Virus record (IMG/VR): IMGVR_UViG_3300027969_000199
Location: 1 to 39,739 of that record
Reading direction: 5' to 3' (one strand)
DNA: 39,739 nucleotides
Source: a virus
Shown here: positions 20,513-37,831 of the stretch, piece after piece
How positions within the stretch are numbered: position 1 is the stretch's first letter
Layout: every line of letters starts with the position of its first letter
Made by a program: the position numbers and the translations under genes
The notes under the pieces: generated by a model
Database searches by the model: none
What the model saw: the letters and a program-made list of their open reading frames with translations, nothing else
What the model was told of the DNA's origin: nothing

Positions 20513-21082
20513 ATGTCTGAAATAGAATTAGCAGAACGTTTTGACCGTATGAACAAAGTAGTAGAACAAATGCTTATGGGCAATAGTGCTACTCAAATTT
20601 CAAAGACTCTATCTCTTCCACGTAAAGACGTGCTAGAATTAATTGAAGAATGGAAAACTGTTGTTCGTGATGATTCAAGTGCAAGAGACCGTGCAAAAGA
20701 AGCGGTAGCAGGTGCAGATCAACACTACGCAATGCTCATTAAAGAGGCCTGGAAGACTGTAGACGATGCAGATCAGGCAGGACAACTAAATGTTAAGGCT
20801 ACCATATTAAAGCTTATCTCAGACATTGAGCAGAAAAGAATTGCTATGCTTCAGCAGCTTGGACTACTTGATAATGCAGAGCTTGCCAGCCATCTTGCAG
20901 AAACAGAAAGAAAGCAAGACATTCTTATTGGAATATTAAAAGATATATCAGCAGAGTACCCGCAGGTAAGAAATGAAATTATGCGTAGGCTTTCACAGAT
21001 ATCTAATCAAGTTGAAGAAGTAATCATTGCAGAGGCAAATAATGTAACTAGCCTCAGAGATGTGAGCGAAGATGTCGTTTAA
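20513..21082 (+). CDS. terS: Probable terminase small subunit (189 aa)
   Basis: The N-terminal helix-turn-helix, MLMGNSATQISKTLSLPRKD followed by VLELIEEW, suits recognition of phage DNA. The remainder is helical (AKEAVAGADQHYAMLIKEAW, LKLISDIEQKRIAMLQQLGL), suited to ring assembly. It overlaps the start of the large terminase gene by 11 bases, the classic order for a small subunit. It lacks any enzyme motif. The name rests on architecture and position. Confidence 0.75.
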   Translation: MSEIELAERFDRMNKVVEQMLMGNSATQISKTLSLPRKDVLELIEEWKTVVRDDSSARDRAKEAVAGADQHYAMLIKEAWKTVDDADQAGQLNVKATILKLISDIEQKRIAMLQQLGLLDNAELASHLAETERKQDILIGILKDISAEYPQVRNEIMRRLSQISNQVEEVIIAEANNVTSLRDVSEDVV

Positions 21083-22850
21083 TTTTGCAGACATAATTGA
21101 TATACTTGACGGTGAAGAGTTTGAAGAACGCCCAGTAGAGTTAGATGAATTTGTTGTCAGCCACGAGTATCTTGGACTACCACCATTATCCGAGTATCAA
21201 TACATGCTTATCAGAGCAAGCTCACAAATATATAAGAGGGCAACTTTAAATAAATTATATGGTGAAGAAGCTGGCGAAAAGCGCTGGAAAGAAACAGTCA
21301 ATGAAGTAGTAGCACAACTGGGTAAGGGATCAGGTAAAGACTACTGCTCTACTATTGCCGTTGCTTATATTGTTTATCTTTTATTATGTTTAAAAGACCC
21401 AGCAAAATATTTTGGAAAGCCTCCTGGAGACTCAATTGATCTTATTAATATTGCTGTTAACGCACAGCAGGCTAAGAATGTTTTTTTTAAAGGGCTTAAG
21501 ACAAGAGTTGACAAGTCCCCTTGGTTTGCAGGAAAGTATATAGCAAAGGCGGACGTAATTGAGTTTGATAAAGGCATTAGCTGTCACTCAGGTCACTCCG
21601 AAAGAGAAGCATTTGAGGGATACAACGCACTAGTAGTTATCCTGGACGAGATTTCTGGATTCAGTGTTGACAATACAACAGGTCACGAGCAAGCTAAAAC
21701 GGCTGGAGCAATATATGATATGTATAGGGCATCAGTAGATTCACGTTTTCCAGACTTTGGTAAAGTAATACTTCTTTCATTCCCACGCTATAAGAATGAT
21801 TATATACAGCAAAGATATGAAGCAGTCGTTGCTCAAAAAGAAGTAAAGGTATTGAGTCATAAATTTAAGATGGACGAAGATCTTCAAGATGGTGTAGATG
21901 GAAATGAATTTACTGTTGAATGGGAAGAAGATCAAATAATATCCTATAAGATTCCAAAGACTTTTGCATTGCGTAGACCAACATGGCAGATTAACCCAAC
22001 TAGAACTATTGATGATTTTAAGGTAGCTTTCTATACAAATCCAACAGATGCATTGTCACGCTTTGCATGTATGCCACCAGAAGCAGTAGACGCTTTCTTT
22101 AAGTCAAGAGAAAAGATTGAGGCGGCATTTGTCTTAAATAATGGTGTAGACAACTCCACTGGAAGATTTGAAGAAGCCCTAAAACCGTTGGAAGATATGG
22201 AATATTTTGTGCACGTTGACTTAGCTCAAAAGCATGACCATTGTGCAGTATCTATGTCTCACGTAAGTGAGTGGGTAAAGATTAGATCATTTAATGATTA
22301 TGAGCAGGTAGCTCCTAAAGTTATTGTTGATGCAGTAAGATGGTGGACTCCTACTTCAGATAAGTCTGTTGATTTTACTGAGGTCAAAGATTATATTATT
22401 TCTCTTAAGTCTAGAGGTTTTAATATTAAGGCTGTAACATTTGACCGATGGAACTCACACGATATGATGCAACAAATTAAAAATTATAATATTCACACAG
22501 AGATATTATCCGTAGCAAAGAAGCACTACGAGGATATGGCTCTTGGAATTATGGAAGAAAGAATAACTGGTCCAGATATTAAGCTTTTAATAGACGAGTT
22601 ATTGCAGTTAAGAATTGTGAGAGACAAGGTAGATCACCCTAGAAAGGGCTCTAAGGACCTTGCAGACGCCGTGTGCGGGTCTATATATAATGCCATATCA
22701 AGATCACAAAAAGGCGATAGAGAAATTAATATTCACACTTGGGCTGGAAGCAAAGAAGATAATGTAAATAGCAAGGTAACTAAGGATGGAGTACCTAAGA
22801 GGATGCCAGCAGAACTCTTAGATGCAATATCAGGAATGAGTATACTATGA
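21072..22850 (+). CDS. terL: Terminase large subunit (592 aa)
   Basis: ATP-driven DNA packaging motor and headful/cos nuclease. ATPase domain: Walker A-like GKGSGKD (84-90) and Walker B LVVILDE (D192, E193). RNase H-like nuclease domain: D383 in HVDLAQKHDH, D458 in TFDRWNSHD, D532 in KDLADAVCG. The order and spacing match phage TerL. The C-terminal ~40 residues form a loop-rich tail. It overlaps both neighbours (ATGA with the next gene). Portal and capsid genes expected beside terminase are absent, so the structural module must lie elsewhere, probably left of the window. Confidence 0.93.
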   Translation: MSFNFADIIDILDGEEFEERPVELDEFVVSHEYLGLPPLSEYQYMLIRASSQIYKRATLNKLYGEEAGEKRWKETVNEVVAQLGKGSGKDYCSTIAVAYIVYLLLCLKDPAKYFGKPPGDSIDLINIAVNAQQAKNVFFKGLKTRVDKSPWFAGKYIAKADVIEFDKGISCHSGHSEREAFEGYNALVVILDEISGFSVDNTTGHEQAKTAGAIYDMYRASVDSRFPDFGKVILLSFPRYKNDYIQQRYEAVVAQKEVKVLSHKFKMDEDLQDGVDGNEFTVEWEEDQIISYKIPKTFALRRPTWQINPTRTIDDFKVAFYTNPTDALSRFACMPPEAVDAFFKSREKIEAAFVLNNGVDNSTGRFEEALKPLEDMEYFVHVDLAQKHDHCAVSMSHVSEWVKIRSFNDYEQVAPKVIVDAVRWWTPTSDKSVDFTEVKDYIISLKSRGFNIKAVTFDRWNSHDMMQQIKNYNIHTEILSVAKKHYEDMALGIMEERITGPDIKLLIDELLQLRIVRDKVDHPRKGSKDLADAVCGSIYNAISRSQKGDREINIHTWAGSKEDNVNSKVTKDGVPKRMPAELLDAISGMSIL

Positions 22851-26528: not shown

Positions 26529-26750
26529 ATGGCTAAATTGAATTACGAGGCAGCTCATAAAGTTGTCGACGCAAACTATAATCTATATTGGGACGGATGG
26601 GACATCTGTTCTTGGCGTAGAGACCATAAGGGTTTTTTTAATAAACAAGGAATTTTTAGGAATGGTAACTGGGGAATTGTAGAGTGCTTCAAGATGGAAG
26701 ATGATGGCACGTGGAAGGTCCCAGATAAATATGTCAAATATATTAAATGA
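26529..26750 (+). CDS. Hypothetical protein rich in Trp (73 aa)
   Basis: Seven Trp in 73 residues (LYWDGWDICSWRRDHKGFF, NWGIVECF, TWKVPDKYVKYIK), suggesting a small beta-rich fold. AGAAGA RBS. It lies before the WhiB gene and overlaps it by 20 bases. Family not identified. Confidence 0.65.
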   Translation: MAKLNYEAAHKVVDANYNLYWDGWDICSWRRDHKGFFNKQGIFRNGNWGIVECFKMEDDGTWKVPDKYVKYIK

Positions 26751-27045
26751 TTTAGGCGTAGATGTAGAAGATTTAAATTGGACAGACTTAGCAGCATGTT
26801 CAGGTATGCCAGCGGAATTCTTTTTTGATACATACGAAGTTGATCAAACTTTAGCTAAAAACATTGATGAAATGTGTTTAGTTTGCCCAGTAGCAAAGCA
26901 GTGCCTTGCCGCTGGAGTAGAGGGAGATGAATACGGTGTATGGGGCGGAGTCTATTTAACTTTAGGTGACGTAGATAAAACTAGGAACTCTCACAAAACT
27001 CCAGAAGTCTGGAAAAGATGGAAGAGTAAGCATGGACAAAGGTAG
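26731..27045 (+). CDS. WhiB-family Fe-S transcription regulator (104 aa)
   Basis: WhiB-like protein: four cysteines at 23, 49, 52 and 58 (DLAAC, MCLVCPVAKQC) to hold a [4Fe-4S] cluster, then the G-V-W-G-G turn (69-73) that contacts the sigma factor, then a basic tail (KRWKSKHGQR) for DNA. WhiB proteins are found only in actinobacteria and their phages; they bind the SigA region 4 and redirect transcription. I chose ATG 26731; an ATG at 26701 would add 10 residues and a 50-base overlap. Confidence 0.9.
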   Translation: MSNILNDLGVDVEDLNWTDLAACSGMPAEFFFDTYEVDQTLAKNIDEMCLVCPVAKQCLAAGVEGDEYGVWGGVYLTLGDVDKTRNSHKTPEVWKRWKSKHGQR

Positions 27046-27503: not shown

Positions 27504-27720
27504 TTGTAGCAAATCAAGATTTAAGATAAGCGTTAAGAAATCAACACTTATTAAAGGAATAAATTTGCTACTATGTGACCAATGCATATCTTCTGGATAT
27601 GAGCCAAGATGGGCTATCATTCTGGCTGGAAGACAATATGGATCGGAACTTGTAAAAGAATACGTACTTAATCATAAATACTATGGTGAAGAGATAAGTG
27701 CAACGGAGCTTCTCGTATGA
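27478..27720 (+). CDS. Zinc-binding hypothetical protein (80 aa)
   Basis: The ATG at 27478 is preferred over that at 27475 because GAGGAG ends at 27473. Two CxxC pairs (LCYSCSKSRF, LLCDQCISSG) make a treble-clef-like zinc site; the C-terminal half is helical (YGSELVKEYVLNHKYYGEE). Function unknown. ATGA overlap with the membrane protein downstream. Confidence 0.62.
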   Translation: MTDQILCYSCSKSRFKISVKKSTLIKGINLLLCDQCISSGYEPRWAIILAGRQYGSELVKEYVLNHKYYGEEISATELLV

Positions 27721-27941
27721 AAAAATCAGAAAAAATTGGATATATTTTAGGAATACTAATAGGACTATCATTCTGGATTTATTTAATATATTATGTAGCA
27801 TCTGAATTGTTTAATAGAATTATCAATGATTCTGGAGATCCATACCCAGTGTTGACACTATTGATTGGAATTGCTATACTTATAAGACAGACTTCTTTAA
27901 CTAAGAAATTCAAAGCTATTCAAGAATGGATAAATAAATGA
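27717..27941 (+). CDS. Two-pass membrane protein (74 aa)
   Basis: Two hydrophobic helices: IGYILGILIGLSFWIYLIYY and YPVLTLLIGIAILI, with basic ends (MKKSEK and SLTKKFKAIQEWINK) placing both termini inside. Overlaps its neighbours by ATGA on both sides. It precedes the Ntn-hydrolase; the two could be linked functionally, but only by proximity. Confidence 0.65.
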   Translation: MKKSEKIGYILGILIGLSFWIYLIYYVASELFNRIINDSGDPYPVLTLLIGIAILIRQTSLTKKFKAIQEWINK

Positions 27942-28492
27942 CAGTTATTTGTGCCGTTGTAAATGAGAATGGCTCGTATATTGCTGGTGACCGTGGTGCA
28001 TCCGATGACAATATCATCTTGCCCTTGGCTCACCCAAAGGTTTGGCAGATAGGTCCATATCTTTTTGGATACTACGGAAGTATGGACGGCGAAAAAGTTA
28101 TGTATAACTTTGAACCACCACTACCTACAGCAGCACAAAAAAAGAATATAGACAAGTTTATGGGTAACGATTTTACTAAAGCCCTAAAAGAATTCTATGA
28201 CGAGCATTTCGTATTTACTGCAGAAAAAGAATGCGACTTTGGAATGATTATCATTACAGAAGGCAAGATGTACGAGCATGATGCTGGAACTATGTCAATG
28301 ACAAGATTTGAAACAGATTTCCTTTCAGTTGGAAGCGGATCAGAGTATGCTTATGGGTCACTATATAGCACACAGGTCTGGAGTGACGGAAAGAAAAGAG
28401 TAAGAATTGCAATTGAAGCTGCTACAAAATATAGCCCTTCATGCATGCAGCCAATAGATGTAATATCGATACTAAGAAAAGAGATAAAATAA
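27938..28492 (+). CDS. HslV/proteasome-like Ntn-hydrolase (184 aa)
   Basis: After removal of Met1 the protein begins TVICAVV, and counting from that Thr the catalytic residues of HslV and proteasome beta subunits are in place: Thr1, Asp17 (IAGDRGASD) and Lys33 (HPKVWQIG). A later SVGSGSEYAYGSL segment resembles the Ser/Gly loop (around residue 129) of HslV. The length (184) is close to HslV. These enzymes form ring-shaped peptidases. No propeptide is present and no HslU-like ATPase is in the window, so the partner, if any, would be the host's. Target unknown. Confidence 0.75.
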   Translation: MTVICAVVNENGSYIAGDRGASDDNIILPLAHPKVWQIGPYLFGYYGSMDGEKVMYNFEPPLPTAAQKKNIDKFMGNDFTKALKEFYDEHFVFTAEKECDFGMIIITEGKMYEHDAGTMSMTRFETDFLSVGSGSEYAYGSLYSTQVWSDGKKRVRIAIEAATKYSPSCMQPIDVISILRKEIK

Positions 28493-28701
28493 TGAATGAC
28501 TTTACACTTCAAGATTTAGAGAAGATGATTTCTGATATTTCAGGAGAATTCTATGCGGAATTCTATTCTCATCAAAACCCAGACGGGGATCAAGAATTTA
28601 TTACCGTCCATAGACAGTTTGCTGAGACATACGTAGTATTTACTGTTAATAGACTTATTCAAAGATTCAACGAAATGATGGCCCCTAATGCCACAGAATG
28701 A
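28492..28701 (+). CDS. Hypothetical protein (69 aa)
   Basis: TAATG overlap with the Ntn-hydrolase gene fixes the start at 28492. Helical, acidic (FTLQDLEKMISDISGEFYAE, ETYVVFTVNRLIQRFNEMM). No family recognised. It overlaps the DUF1599-like gene by 14 bases, so the three are one translational unit. Confidence 0.62.
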   Translation: MNDFTLQDLEKMISDISGEFYAEFYSHQNPDGDQEFITVHRQFAETYVVFTVNRLIQRFNEMMAPNATE

Positions 28702-28978
28702 TTTTGAAACAGACGTAAAGAAGATTTTTGACGAGGCCTACGTTCTCTTGATACGAAAGCACAAGGATTACGGCCCAAAAAATATTTCATCTGCTCCAGG
28801 CGGAGCTCTTAATGGTCTAATTGTGCGAAAGCATGATAAGTTTGAGAGAATTAAAAACCTATTTTTTAATAAGAAAGACAGCAAGCCACAGTTTGAGACA
28901 CTTAGAGAGTCATTTATTGATGATCTAAACTATAGCGCAATTGCCATGATGGTAATTGACGGCAAGTGGCCAGAGTAG
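28688..28978 (+). CDS. DUF1599 (Nmad1)-like protein (96 aa)
   Basis: RKHKDYGPKNISSAPGGALN followed by GLIVRKHDKFERIKNL and ESFIDDLNYSAIAMMVIDGKW matches the DUF1599 pattern (KHxDYG, RxxDKxxRxxNL, ESxxDDLxxxxNYxxIAxM). The family is called nucleotide modification associated domain 1 because of its association with modified-base genes in phages; its fold is MazG-like in character. The biochemical reaction is not established. No clear base-hypermodification pathway is visible in this window. Confidence 0.78.
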   Translation: MPQNDFETDVKKIFDEAYVLLIRKHKDYGPKNISSAPGGALNGLIVRKHDKFERIKNLFFNKKDSKPQFETLRESFIDDLNYSAIAMMVIDGKWPE

Positions 28979-29073: not shown

Positions 29074-30102
29074 ATGAAGAAACTATCAATTATCACGGCA
29101 GTGCTTGTGGCAATGACTACTTTAGTAGCAGCCCCAGCAGCCAATGCTAATGCTGGAACTGTTACCCTTACGGTAGCTGGATCAGCAGCAACAGGTGGAA
29201 CAGTAGTAGGAACTCCTGTATCACTACCAGTACCAGCAGATAACAGCATTGATGCAGCAGATGCATTAAAGATTGCTGTAACATCAGTTGACACTGGAAC
29301 AGTAGTAACAGCAGTTGCAACTAATGCAACAATTGTTTCTGCTCTTGCAACATCAGCAGCACCAGTAACTGCATCAAGCGGTTCATCAACACTTTCAGTT
29401 TCAACAGGAACTGGAAACTCAGCAGACTTTTATGTATATACAAAGAGCACATCAGTAGGAACAGTTGCGATTACTCGTGCTGGAACTACAACAGTGTACT
29501 ATGTACAAGGTACAGCAGGAGCACTGAACTCAATTGCAATCACCGCACCAGCAACTGGAGCAGCGGGAACAGTTGCAACTCTTAAGGTAACAGGATACGA
29601 CGTATTCGGTAACCCAAAGGGTGGAGCAACAATTAATACTTTAGTAAGCTCAAATGGTGCAGCAACTGCAACAGCGCTTACAACAGATACAGCAGTAGCA
29701 ACACTTGGAACTAAGGAGCAGACAGTTACACTTCCTGCTTCAGGTTCAGTTGTAGTTACAGCATACGCAACAGTAGCAACAGCCGTAACAGGCCTTACAG
29801 CACCAGTAGGTTCTGTAGTTGCAACAATTGCAGTGCGTGATCTTGCAGGAGAACTTGCATCAAAGAATGCAGAACTCGCAGTAGCTAATGCAGCACTTGC
29901 AGCAGAAAAGGCTGGACGTGCAGCAGACAAGGTTGCAGCAGATAAAGCACTTGCAGATGCAGCAGCAAAGCTTGCAGCAGATGCAACAACAGCAAAGGCT
30001 TCGGCAGATCTTGCTAAAGCTACTTACATCGCAGAGTACAACGCTCTTGCTAAGAAGTGGAATGCAAAGAATCCAAAGGCTAAGGTTGCTTTAAAGAAGT
30101 AA
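29074..30102 (+). CDS. Ala-rich secreted surface protein (342 aa)
   Basis: A classic Sec signal peptide (MKKLSIITAVLVAMTTLVAA, then PAANA as the cleavage site). The mature part is Ala/Thr/Val/Gly-rich; residues ~150-255 have an invasin/Big-1-like Ig domain (GTVATLKVTGYDVFGNPKGG, then LVSSNGAATATALTTD). The last ~75 residues form an Ala-rich coiled coil (ELASKNAELAVANAALAAEK), ending in a basic tail (KKWNAKNPKAKVALKK). It has its own promoter, 5' hairpin and a perfect terminator, i.e. an independent cassette. It is probably displayed on or released from the infected cell, perhaps derived from a host envelope protein; function unknown. Confidence 0.78.
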   Translation: MKKLSIITAVLVAMTTLVAAPAANANAGTVTLTVAGSAATGGTVVGTPVSLPVPADNSIDAADALKIAVTSVDTGTVVTAVATNATIVSALATSAAPVTASSGSSTLSVSTGTGNSADFYVYTKSTSVGTVAITRAGTTTVYYVQGTAGALNSIAITAPATGAAGTVATLKVTGYDVFGNPKGGATINTLVSSNGAATATALTTDTAVATLGTKEQTVTLPASGSVVVTAYATVATAVTGLTAPVGSVVATIAVRDLAGELASKNAELAVANAALAAEKAGRAADKVAADKALADAAAKLAADATTAKASADLAKATYIAEYNALAKKWNAKNPKAKVALKK

Positions 30103-30229: not shown

Positions 30230-32962
30230 ATGAAAAAACGGCTATTAATTAGTATGTTTTCAGCAGTGTTATTAGCACTGCTATTAGCTATTTTATCCCC
30301 AAATAAAGCTCATGCAGAAGATCCAGTTCCAGCACCAGCAGAACAAGTAATTGTAAGCCCCGCACAGCAAGCAGTCAATACAGCAATTGCAACAGCAACA
30401 ACAGAAGTGGCACAGGCAGCGCAAGCCTCAGATACAGCGACAGTAACAATAGCCACAGCGGTTCAAGCAGTAGCAACATCTAACACAGCAGTAAATGCAG
30501 CAAATACTGCGGTGACTGCGGCAACTATTGCGGTAGCCGAAGTGTCAAATGTATCTCCAGTTGTAGAAAATGCAACGGCGGTTGTTCAAGCAATTACTTC
30601 AACAGTAGCATCAATTACACAAGCCGTAGCCGCAATACCAGTAACGGCTACAACTCAAACACCAGAAGTCGCTACAGCACAAGAAGTTGTTACAGCAGCA
30701 ACCACTGTTGTTGAGTCTGCAACTACATCCTTAACACAAGCAGTTGCTACGGCAGCAACTCCAGCAGGATCACCCGTTCCATCTGTTACCATAGAGCAAG
30801 TTTCTACAGCAATTGCAACAGAAGTTGCTCAATCAGAAACAGCAACAGTTTTAGTTCAAGCAGCTCAGACAGCAATAGACACAGCAACTGCAACAGTTGC
30901 TACAGCAACTACGGCGGTGGCAGCAATAACACCTGCACGTACAGAGGCTCAAACACAATTAACTCAAGCAAATGTAGCAATTAATAACGCACAGGATGCA
31001 GTCAATGCTCTTGCAGCAACTATTGGCACTACAACAAATGTTTTAGCAAACACAGATGATGCGGGTGTACGCATGAATCTACCATTTAATTTACAAATGG
31101 GCGGGGTAACATATAACAATGTTTACGTTGGATCTAATGCAACTATTACCTTTGGTGTTAATGAGGGACAAAACTATTACTCTACCCCCAATGCACCTTC
31201 TATTTCTGTAGCGGGATATGATTGGACTACATGGAGTAATGGCTCTGGAGTTACCTACTCAACAACAACTAACACCCTTTCAGTTGCTTGGGATGTTCGT
31301 GTATATCCTTTAAGAACTGCTGATACTCAAATGACTCAAATTAGATTTAATGCAGATGTAAACCCAGCAGATGGCGCTTGGCAAGCAGATGTTAGCGTAA
31401 CTGGACCAATACCAAATGGTGCTAGGTTTAACGTAAGAGAGACAACTGGTGGTACAGTAACAAATATTAATAATACAAGCACTACTACAGGATTTACTGG
31501 GACAATTTCTCAGGGGTCTGCATTTACTCCTACACCTGATCCAAGCAATGCATCAGTTCAGGCGGCAATAGATACAGCAAATGCACAAATTGCTACATTA
31601 AACTCAGCAGTTACGGCTATTGTTGCAACAAATACAGCAAATACAACAGCCGCAGCAGCAATTCCTGTAATCGCTACTGTTTCTGCAAACACTGTGACTG
31701 CATTAGCAACAGCAAACACAACATTAACTACAAAGGTAGCAGACATTGCAATTGTTTCTACAGCTGTAGAAAAAGTAACTACTGCACCTACAATAATTGC
31801 AGAAGCGCAAACAGTAATTAATGCAGTTCCTGCACCAGCGCCCTTGCCAGCCCCTGCTCCACCTGCAACAGTTGAACCACCAGTAGTCGTGCCACCTGTA
31901 GACACTACACCAGTAGTCGTGCCACCTGTAGACACTACACCAGTAGTCGTGCCACCTGTAGACACTACACCAGTAGAAACAGAGCCTATAGATACAGAGC
32001 CAGTAGATACAGAACCCGTGGATACCACACCAGTGGAAACAGAACCTACAGACACTACTCCTGTGGAAACAGAACCTACAGACACTACTCCTGTGGAAAC
32101 AGAACCTACAGACACTACTCCTGTTGAAACAGAGCCTATAGACACAGAGCCTGTTGAAACAGAACCTGTGGATACAGAACCAGTAGACGTTGAACCAGTT
32201 GATATAGAACCAGTGACGGGATCCGAAGAAGATGTAGCCAATACAGTTGATGATGCACTGTCAGATGGTAAATTAGATAGTGAAGAGGTTGATGCAATTG
32301 CAGAGTCAATGGCAGCAGATGGAGAAATTGATGCAGAAGAAACTGATCAATTAATTGAGGCATTATCAGAAGATGGTAAAGTTTCTGTAGCAGATCAAGA
32401 AGCCGTACTTGAAGCACTTGCCTCAGATGGTGAAGTTTCAAAAGAAGATGTTGCAGCAATTGTTGCACTAGCAAGTTCAGATGGTAAATTATCTGAAGCA
32501 GAAAAAGATATTGTTGCTGATGCGTTAATTCAATCAGTGCCAGAAGGTGAAAATCTTACTAAAGAACAGGTAGCGGAAGCTGGAATTAAATTATCAGATT
32601 TACCACCACAGACACCAGTTGATGTTCGTACATCCGAAAATGGTGAGGCTGTTGTTATTACAGCAGAGGTTGCCGTTCAAGTAGAACTAGTTTCCGACCC
32701 AGCAGCATTTGCAGCAGAATTATTTAATGACCCTGTAGCAGCATTACAAGCATTGGGTAGCATAGGCGCAGATATGACAGAAAGCGAAAGAGAAGAAGCA
32801 ACCGAAATGGTTGTAGCAACAGTTGTAGCAGCAGGAGCGGCAATTAACGCTGCAGCAGTTGCCACGGGAGGAGCCACTGGAGGTGGCACAGGGGGCGGAG
32901 GAAGTTCTGGTGGAGGCTCAGGAGCTAATTCACCAGGTTCACGAGGAGGAAGAAGATGGTAA
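30230..32962 (+). CDS. Very large secreted modular protein (910 aa)
   Basis: Sec signal peptide (MKKRLLISMFSAVLLALLLA, cut after NKAHA). Mature layout: Ala/Thr/Val-rich coiled coil (~30-260); a beta domain (~270-430) with YNNVYVGSNATITFG and WDVRVYPLRTADTQM resembling nidogen-like modules; a second helical stretch (~440-530); a Pro/Thr/Glu stalk with repeats of DTTPVVVPPV and DTTPVETEPT (~550-665); five ~18-residue repeats headed DGKLDSEE / DGEIDAEE / DGKVSVAD (~670-770); and a Gly-rich tail ending RRW. It overlaps the next membrane gene by 7 bases and leads into the lysis genes. It probably spans or coats the cell wall; role unproven. Confidence 0.75.
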   Translation: MKKRLLISMFSAVLLALLLAILSPNKAHAEDPVPAPAEQVIVSPAQQAVNTAIATATTEVAQAAQASDTATVTIATAVQAVATSNTAVNAANTAVTAATIAVAEVSNVSPVVENATAVVQAITSTVASITQAVAAIPVTATTQTPEVATAQEVVTAATTVVESATTSLTQAVATAATPAGSPVPSVTIEQVSTAIATEVAQSETATVLVQAAQTAIDTATATVATATTAVAAITPARTEAQTQLTQANVAINNAQDAVNALAATIGTTTNVLANTDDAGVRMNLPFNLQMGGVTYNNVYVGSNATITFGVNEGQNYYSTPNAPSISVAGYDWTTWSNGSGVTYSTTTNTLSVAWDVRVYPLRTADTQMTQIRFNADVNPADGAWQADVSVTGPIPNGARFNVRETTGGTVTNINNTSTTTGFTGTISQGSAFTPTPDPSNASVQAAIDTANAQIATLNSAVTAIVATNTANTTAAAAIPVIATVSANTVTALATANTTLTTKVADIAIVSTAVEKVTTAPTIIAEAQTVINAVPAPAPLPAPAPPATVEPPVVVPPVDTTPVVVPPVDTTPVVVPPVDTTPVETEPIDTEPVDTEPVDTTPVETEPTDTTPVETEPTDTTPVETEPTDTTPVETEPIDTEPVETEPVDTEPVDVEPVDIEPVTGSEEDVANTVDDALSDGKLDSEEVDAIAESMAADGEIDAEETDQLIEALSEDGKVSVADQEAVLEALASDGEVSKEDVAAIVALASSDGKLSEAEKDIVADALIQSVPEGENLTKEQVAEAGIKLSDLPPQTPVDVRTSENGEAVVITAEVAVQVELVSDPAAFAAELFNDPVAALQALGSIGADMTESEREEATEMVVATVVAAGAAINAAAVATGGATGGGTGGGGSSGGGSGANSPGSRGGRRW
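31880..31969 (+). repeat. Tandem repeat, 3 x 30 bp, identical
   Basis: Three exact copies of a 30-bp unit starting CCAGTAGTCGTGCCACCTGT, in frame, encoding repeats of PVVVPPVDTT. Exact identity at the DNA level indicates recent unit expansion and allows slippage to change stalk length. Confidence 0.9.
32033..32122 (+). repeat. Tandem repeat, 3 x 30 bp, identical
   Basis: Three exact copies of a 30-bp unit starting GTGGAAACAGAACCTACAGA, in frame, encoding PVETEPTDTT. A second, independently expanded repeat in the same stalk. Confidence 0.9.
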
Positions 32963-34548: not shown

Positions 34549-34977
34549 ATGGTAACAACAACAACGTTCGGCCTGGATTTTTTTAGAGATCCTTTCTTTA
34601 TTGGCTTTAATCGTGAAGTAGAAAGATTTAATAGCCTACAACAAATTAACCGTGGATCATTCCCACCATATGACCTAATAAAGCTAGACGATGACAAATA
34701 TCGTTTGTCTTTAGCCGTGGCAGGATTCACAAAGGACGATATTACAGTATCAGTAGAGGATAGTAGCCTCATGATTACTGGAGATATTACAGAAGTATTA
34801 GATGCAGAGGTGCTACATAAGGGTATCGCTGGTCGTAAATTTACAAGATCTTTTGAGCTTGGAGAATATATGGAAGTATCTGAAGTAACATTGAAAGACG
34901 GAATGTTAACTATTGATATTGATCGCAATATTCCAAAAGAAAAGCTTCCTAAGATTATTAAGATAAATAACAAATAG
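34549..34977 (+). CDS. Small heat-shock protein Hsp20 (142 aa)
   Basis: Alpha-crystallin-domain holdase chaperone. N-terminal region with Phe-rich FGLDFFRDPFFIGF and PPYDLIKLDDDKYRLSLAVA, the GFTKDDITVSVEDSSLMITG core, and the closing LKDGMLTIDI plus a C-terminal IKINNK with an IxI-like anchor. Resembles IbpA-type proteins; Hsp20 genes occur in other large aquatic phages, where roles in virion assembly have been suggested. It stands alone between its own promoter and a strong terminator. Confidence 0.9.
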   Translation: MVTTTTFGLDFFRDPFFIGFNREVERFNSLQQINRGSFPPYDLIKLDDDKYRLSLAVAGFTKDDITVSVEDSSLMITGDITEVLDAEVLHKGIAGRKFTRSFELGEYMEVSEVTLKDGMLTIDIDRNIPKEKLPKIIKINNK

Positions 34978-35065: not shown

Positions 35066-35344
35066 ATGATCAATCCAATTTGGACGGAAGAGGCTATAGA
35101 AGCCATTCAAACTAAAAAGCTAAGCATGAAATCATTCTATCTAGATGAATCAGTATTGGCCAATGCAGTTCTTGAGAAAGTAGTAGAGAACATAGAGCAA
35201 AGATTATATGAGTGTCCAAACGTAGAAAAATATGTGTGTAGTGTTTGGTGGAAGCATGATGAATGTACGGCATTTATGAGATTGCTAGAAGATTTAACTG
35301 GTAATGATAGATACAGAGAAAAGAAATGGGTGGCAAATGAATAA
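35066..35344 (+). CDS. Hypothetical protein (92 aa), leaderless start
   Basis: Helical, acidic protein (NPIWTEEAIEAIQTKKLSMK, LANAVLEKVVENIEQRLYEC) with two Trp-Trp/His elements (VWWKHDEC). Not recognised. It starts directly at the predicted transcription start and overlaps the thioredoxin gene by 8 bases. Confidence 0.68.
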   Translation: MINPIWTEEAIEAIQTKKLSMKSFYLDESVLANAVLEKVVENIEQRLYECPNVEKYVCSVWWKHDECTAFMRLLEDLTGNDRYREKKWVANE

Positions 35345-35696
35345 GAAGTTAGTACATTTTACTGCAGAATGGTGCAAGCCTTGCAAAGCAATGAAACCAA
35401 TAATTGGTCAATTTATTGAGCAAAACCCAGACATGGAGTATGTTCTTGTAGATATAGATACGGAACCAGAAGTTGCTAAATCACACGGGGTTATGGGAGT
35501 TCCAACTTTTATTAGTTATGTTGATGGAAAACAACACACATCACACACAGGGGCAATGCGCCTTGCAAACTTAAAACAAATGTTTCCAGAAGATGGTCAG
35601 GAAATTTTTAAAACATCAAATATGGAATCTGCTGCTCTATCAGAAACAGATGCTATGGGCAGAGAAATGTTTTGGAAAGACGCTGGCCGTCCATGA
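35337..35696 (+). CDS. Thioredoxin-like protein (119 aa)
   Basis: Thioredoxin fold: LVHFTAEWCKPCKAMKPIIG carries the CxxC redox pair (C13, C16), FVLVDIDTEPEVAKSHGV-like sequence follows, then the cis-Pro loop VMGVPTFISYVDG. ATG 35337 is chosen because it gives the usual ~8 residues before the first strand. The last ~30 residues (SNMESAALSETDAMGREMFW) are an extra tail. It could keep ribonucleotide reductase or other phage proteins reduced, or act in virion assembly; no reductase gene is in the window. Confidence 0.9.
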   Translation: MNKKLVHFTAEWCKPCKAMKPIIGQFIEQNPDMEYVLVDIDTEPEVAKSHGVMGVPTFISYVDGKQHTSHTGAMRLANLKQMFPEDGQEIFKTSNMESAALSETDAMGREMFWKDAGRP

Positions 35697-37341: not shown

Positions 37342-37545
37342 ATGTCTGAACAAGATATATACTTCTATGGCGGAGAAGATGGAAGTTTTATTAAAACATT
37401 TAAAGATAAAGAAGATGGCTTATGGTATTCATTACATTCTGGAGTAAATAAAAGAATGTTCTTTATGGCATTAGGCATGAAGACAGAAAAAGAAGCGTAC
37501 GATCTAATCGTAAAAACATCTACAGAAAAGAGAGAAAGTGATTAA
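37342..37545 (+). CDS. Hypothetical protein (67 aa)
   Basis: Compact beta-rich start (DIYFYGGEDGSFIKTF, GLWYSLHSGVNKR) and helical end (EKEAYDLIVKTSTEKRE). RBS GAAAGG. Not recognised. It follows the possible structured RNA, so it would be the first target of any leader control, and overlaps the GroES gene by 8 bases. Confidence 0.65.
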   Translation: MSEQDIYFYGGEDGSFIKTFKDKEDGLWYSLHSGVNKRMFFMALGMKTEKEAYDLIVKTSTEKRESD

Positions 37546-37831
37546 GCCAATCGGAGGACTACTCCTTGTGAAGCGCAATCAGTCAGAAGATAAGACTACT
37601 AAGAGTGGTTTAGTTATCTCGGCTGCAGTATCAGAAAGCGATATGAAGACTGGAACTATTGTTGATATGGGGCCAGGTGAGCAGAACTATATTGGCGATC
37701 TTATTCCAATTATTGGTCTATGCGTAGGAGATACCGTCTACTACACAGAGCGTAGTGCAACGGAGATTGAGGATGAAGACTCAACAAAGTATGATTTAAT
37801 TAGCTCAAAGAATGTGCTGGCAAAGCGATGA
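37538..37831 (+). CDS. groES: GroES-like co-chaperonin (97 aa)
   Basis: GTG start at 37538. GroES beta-barrel pattern: IKPIGGLLLVKRNQSEDKTT, a mobile loop with SGLVISAAV, TGTIVDMGPGEQNY, VGDTVYYTE and a final KYDLISSKNVLAKR. The length matches GroES. It would cap the host GroEL, as T4 gp31 does, to help fold the capsid protein. No GroEL gene is present. Confidence 0.88.
   Translation: MIKPIGGLLLVKRNQSEDKTTKSGLVISAAVSESDMKTGTIVDMGPGEQNYIGDLIPIIGLCVGDTVYYTERSATEIEDEDSTKYDLISSKNVLAKR

Follow-up and report, generated by a model that had tools for sequence, protein, structure and literature searches.

The window analysed here is the whole stretch of viral DNA, 39,739 nucleotides in length. On its plus strand, the open reading frame at 27938-28492 encodes a putative proteasome-like N-terminal threonine peptidase of 184 residues. 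The translation reads MTVICAVVNENGSYIAGDRGASDDNIILPLAHPKVW...SVGSGSEYA..., also given as MTVICAVVNENGSYIAGDRG...HPKVW...SVGSGSEYA. With Met numbered as residue 0, the presumed nucleophile Thr1 is encoded at 27941-27943, Asp17 at 27989-27991 and Lys33 at 28037-28039, all on the plus strand, and the GSGS motif covers residues 131-134. Thr1, Asp17 and Lys33 occupy the exact positions of the catalytic residues of HslV and proteasome beta subunits. The conservation of this register is nearly complete. An alignment of 197 sequences, made of homologues and a few HslV and BPH (beta-proteobacteria proteasome homologue) references, has Thr1 in 195, Asp17 in all 197 and Lys33 in 196. The two exceptions at Thr1 are a serine in L041 and a frame with a misplaced start in L116, and the only exception at Lys33 (L033) is an apparent alignment slip by one residue. 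The Met-Thr pair, Asp and Lys are invariant in a smaller alignment of 88 sequences. The Met-Thr start is retained in nearly all relatives, and the absence of a propeptide, claimed in the preliminary description, is borne out. Compared with sister contigs, dN/dS of the protease is 0.03-0.15, indicating strong purifying selection. In one sister contig (L024:8001-8465) the protease frame stops early, at 154 residues, by a frameshift or an assembly error.

The gene order around the protease in most sister contigs is WhiB, three small genes, membrane peptide, protease, small ORF and phrog_1485. A 74-residue peptide with two hydrophobic stretches lies directly upstream of the protease (27717-27941, plus strand). 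The end of its frame and the beginning of the protease frame share 4 bp (ATGA). Nine of the ten sister contigs show this overlap, and the peptide diverges faster than the protease among sister contigs. Two other contigs, L051 and L052, carry a different short hydrophobic peptide with the same 4-bp overlap; BLAST between the two peptides gives E=0.11. Downstream, a small ORF of 69 residues (28492-28701, plus strand), not retained in all relatives, separates the protease from a DUF1599-like protein (28688-28978, plus strand; phrog_1485, 2.4e-15, with a weak match to PF07659). The preliminary description had put the protease next to both a membrane peptide and a DUF1599-like protein; the hydrophobic peptide does adjoin it, while the DUF1599-like gene is the second one downstream. 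Every searched contig of the group that has WhiB also has phrog_1485, as does phage LanE43-AprF5, and in Microbacterium phage WaterT it lies directly upstream of the protease homologue. Between phrog_1485 and the endolysin lie genes for two large proteins rich in repeats and in Ala, Thr and Pro (29074-30102 and 30230-32962), whose N-termini look like signal sequences; neither matches a PHROG. Several protein-folding genes accompany the protease in the window, namely Hsp20 (34549-34977), thioredoxin (35340-35696) and a GroES-like co-chaperonin (37538-37831).

The carrier can be assigned from two further genes. A WhiB-like regulator, a marker of an actinobacterial host, is encoded at 26701-27045 on the plus strand (PF02467, 9.1e-12; phrog_472), and WhiB has been taken as an actinophage marker (PMC6802176, PMC10202952). 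The window carries it, as do the contig of L051 and each of the five sister contigs searched. In the same search none of the 42 other AAH-bearing viral contigs has it, one of these being the 8-kb fragment with L052. The terminase large subunit (21072-22850, plus strand) is 60% identical to that of Streptomyces phages such as Gilson (Stanwilliamsviridae). Judged from WhiB and the terminase, the carrier of the protease is an actinobacterial phage, as had been supposed.

The fold of the protease is predicted with high confidence. The AlphaFold2 model built from 88 sequences has pLDDT 94 and pTM 0.90 and adopts the alpha-beta-beta-alpha Ntn-hydrolase fold; it replaces a poor run on eight close sequences (pLDDT 57). 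Helices of the model span residues 51-57, 65-69 and 71-90. In Foldseek the best PDB match is BPH (PDB entries 5ovs, 5ovt and 5ovu; 6e-12, TM 0.76), followed by HslV (6e-11), with TM values of 0.7-0.77, and against a viral library phage proteins come on top, some of them named HslV or proteasome subunit. Profile methods agree with the structure. The protease matches PHROG phrog_1040, 'peptidase HslV family', over its full length (E=3.8e-16); control genomes of E. coli, B. subtilis and archaea also yield matches to that PHROG. Searched against the PDB, a profile built from 21 relatives retrieves Thermotoga HslV (2e-15), BPH (4e-14) and 20S beta subunits, and hhalign of this profile with E. coli HslV gives 96.5% probability. 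Pfam PF00227, proposed earlier as a check, scores only 14.1 bits, below the gathering score of 22.4; we attribute the shortfall to divergence, the fold and profile searches both being positive. The protease thus illustrates how Pfam cut-offs miss members of a family. Because the phrog_1040 match, the conservation of Thr1, Asp17 and Lys33 and the predicted fold coincide, the register first noticed in the translation is not a chance arrangement.

The label HslV, in contrast, does not hold in the strict sense. The protease scores 11.7 bits against the NCBIfam HslV equivalog TIGR03692 (cut-off 157.75) and 23.4 bits against the bacterial 20S beta family TIGR03690 (cut-off 191.9), which rules out strict membership in either. 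The proteasome-like fold and the conserved triad stand; HslV identity does not. HslV shares the fold, the triad and the Met-Thr start, but no HslU-like partner is found in the window or in ten partial sister contigs. A 2021 survey reported 22 new proteasome homologues; AAH and PPH are among them, and both occur in phages (Fuchs, Alva and Lupas 2021, PMC8665760), so a phage-borne proteasome homologue is not a new kind of protein. In our tree the protease groups, with support 99/98, with AAH-type references, whose AAH identity is taken from their taxon distribution; homologues from Rhizobium, Azospirillum, Frankia and Streptomyces fit the distribution of AAH. When long branches are reduced, the protease and the alpha-proteobacterial and actinobacterial AAH-type sequences stand apart from HslV (100/97), with the protease as a sister branch. 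This deep sister branch consists of the protease, L051 and L052 (99/92), and the protease's own branch is long. Placed by sequence, the protease is an AAH-side proteasome-like peptidase on a separate deep branch, and neither HslV nor a 20S beta subunit. It resembles AAH in Thr1/Asp17/Lys33, the lack of a propeptide, a length of about 180 residues and carriage by phages. It differs in sharing only 20-31% identity and in forming a deep branch of its own, found in WhiB-bearing phages; at position 46 it has Gly, like HslV-like loops, whereas AAH mostly has Ser or Thr.

Other members of the superfamily are more distant. BPH, which is without a known unfoldase (PMC8665760), is the best structural match, but it shares only about 17-22% identity and falls outside the AAH side of the tree, on a long branch. 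The genes of LanE43-AprF5, WaterT and Pumpernickel are likewise phrog_1040 members with Thr1 in cultured actinophages, but lie outside the AAH side and nearer to HslV, with long branches. PPH has about 140 residues and misses helix H2 (PMC8665760). With 184 residues, a 20-residue helix at 71-90 and a PPH-like sequence located elsewhere in the tree, the protease is not a PPH. Connectase lacks helices H1 and H2 (PMC8665760), and the model of the protease has its three predicted helices, so assignment to connectase is not favored either. An alignment of 14 diverse sequences contains no segment conserved enough to scan a collection with. Bacterial genomes scanned with a pattern of the close group contain pattern matches but no relative, and no close bacterial copy is found among them. 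In Aeromonas phage 4L372D two proteasome-like genes stand in tandem (L021:4001-5454), one on the AAH side and the other PPH-like and extended at its C-terminus, possibly forming a hetero-oligomer. In Actinoplanes couchii (L130:4001-6337) AAH lies within a 779-residue open frame, perhaps a fusion, and in four Rhizobium genomes (L055-L058) AAH is cut short after codon 38. Several homologues, from phages that are unrelated and from a plasmid of Bacillus, have a gene for thymidylate synthase (ThyX or ThyA) adjacent or close by (L034:5186-6444, L039:4001-6513, L019:2691-4579 and L017:1761-4582).

An active enzyme is the simplest reading of the intact register, the fold and the purifying selection. 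We consider it probable, at roughly 60%, that the protease is a catalytically competent proteasome-like N-terminal threonine peptidase of a deep branch beside AAH, carried by an actinophage, oligomeric, and acting in the infected cell rather than as a capsid protease. From the Met-Thr start we infer that Met would be cleaved off by the host's methionine aminopeptidase, leaving Thr1 free. To judge from the fold and conservation, Thr1 would owe its activation to Asp17 and Lys33, as it does in HslV and proteasome beta. The protein would form a homo-oligomer, for which a double ring like that of BPH or HslV is the likeliest arrangement. The AAA_2 profile of HslU/Clp-type unfoldases has no match in the window or in ten sister contigs, all partial. 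PF00004 has none in the sister contigs searched, also partial genomes, and one weak match in the contig of L051. On these searches a phage-encoded unfoldase partner was rejected, although such a gene may lie outside the partial contigs. Since no dedicated phage unfoldase is found, we propose that the peptidase would work within the infected cell and attack proteins that are small, flexible or unfolded; a host AAA+ unfoldase might also be used. Specific substrates, the degradation of host regulators and interference with the proteasome, the latter two raised in the preliminary description, are unsupported guesses.

A different function is possible for the same fold. Connectase is a ligase, and a proteasome-like protein is not necessarily a protease (PMC8665760). 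The protein could be a connectase-like processing enzyme or ligase with one or few targets instead of a general protease, perhaps working at the membrane together with the upstream peptide, or on nucleotide-metabolism enzymes. No unfoldase is found in the partial contigs, a small membrane peptide lies directly upstream in two distant actinophage lineages, and thymidylate synthase lies no more than 1.5 kb away in 4 of 23 genomes, where 0.65 would be expected (P=0.004, post hoc). However, those sister contigs in which ThyX is found do not show this proximity, the predicted helices differ from connectase as described above, and no membrane peptide lies upstream in L006/L027 and most other homologues. 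We regard such a specific enzyme as unlikely, though worth keeping in mind. The membrane peptide and the protease might also form a two-gene unit, in which the peptide brings an unfoldase-free peptidase to the infected actinobacterial membrane, where membrane or envelope proteins would be processed. Since about 20% of the small ORFs in these contigs are rated hydrophobic, the link in two actinophage lineages is only suggestive, and we hold this arrangement to be quite doubtful.

A role in capsid or scaffold maturation, also proposed earlier, would suit a phage protease whose gene has a terminase about 5 kb upstream. Three long sister contigs (G001, G006 and G008), however, encode an S78 prohead protease that lies tens of kilobases away from the protease gene, and in WaterT the protease homologue coexists with an annotated capsid maturation protease. 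Homologues in other phages are often near nucleotide-metabolism genes. Because a separate S78 enzyme is present in these contigs and both genes occur in WaterT, capsid maturation is very improbable. A subunit that joins or disturbs the host 20S proteasome, as an actinobacterial host and a proteasome-like fold might suggest, is hardly credible given the 23.4 bits against the 20S beta cut-off, an intact triad under selection that is ill-suited to a mere decoy, and same-side relatives in phages of Salmonella, Vibrio, Aeromonas and others, groups that are not known for 20S proteasomes.

With its deep branch beside AAH, the protease extends the AAH side to actinophages. The 2021 survey found no Actinobacteria-specific phage with AAH (PMC8665760), and an AAH-side branch in WhiB-encoding actinophages fills this gap. 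L170, from a viral contig, falls within the Streptomyces AAH sequences of the tree and points in the same direction. The genes of LanE43-AprF5, WaterT and Pumpernickel represent a second, more HslV-side type in cultured actinophages. Phage-borne proteasome homologues are widespread, and no experimental study of one surfaced in literature searches. LanE43-AprF5 is a cultured 'Ca. Planktophila' phage whose record is unannotated and whose proteasome-like gene lies at L018:10001-10534. With a related gene in this phage, the function is open to study in a freshwater group that is abundant.
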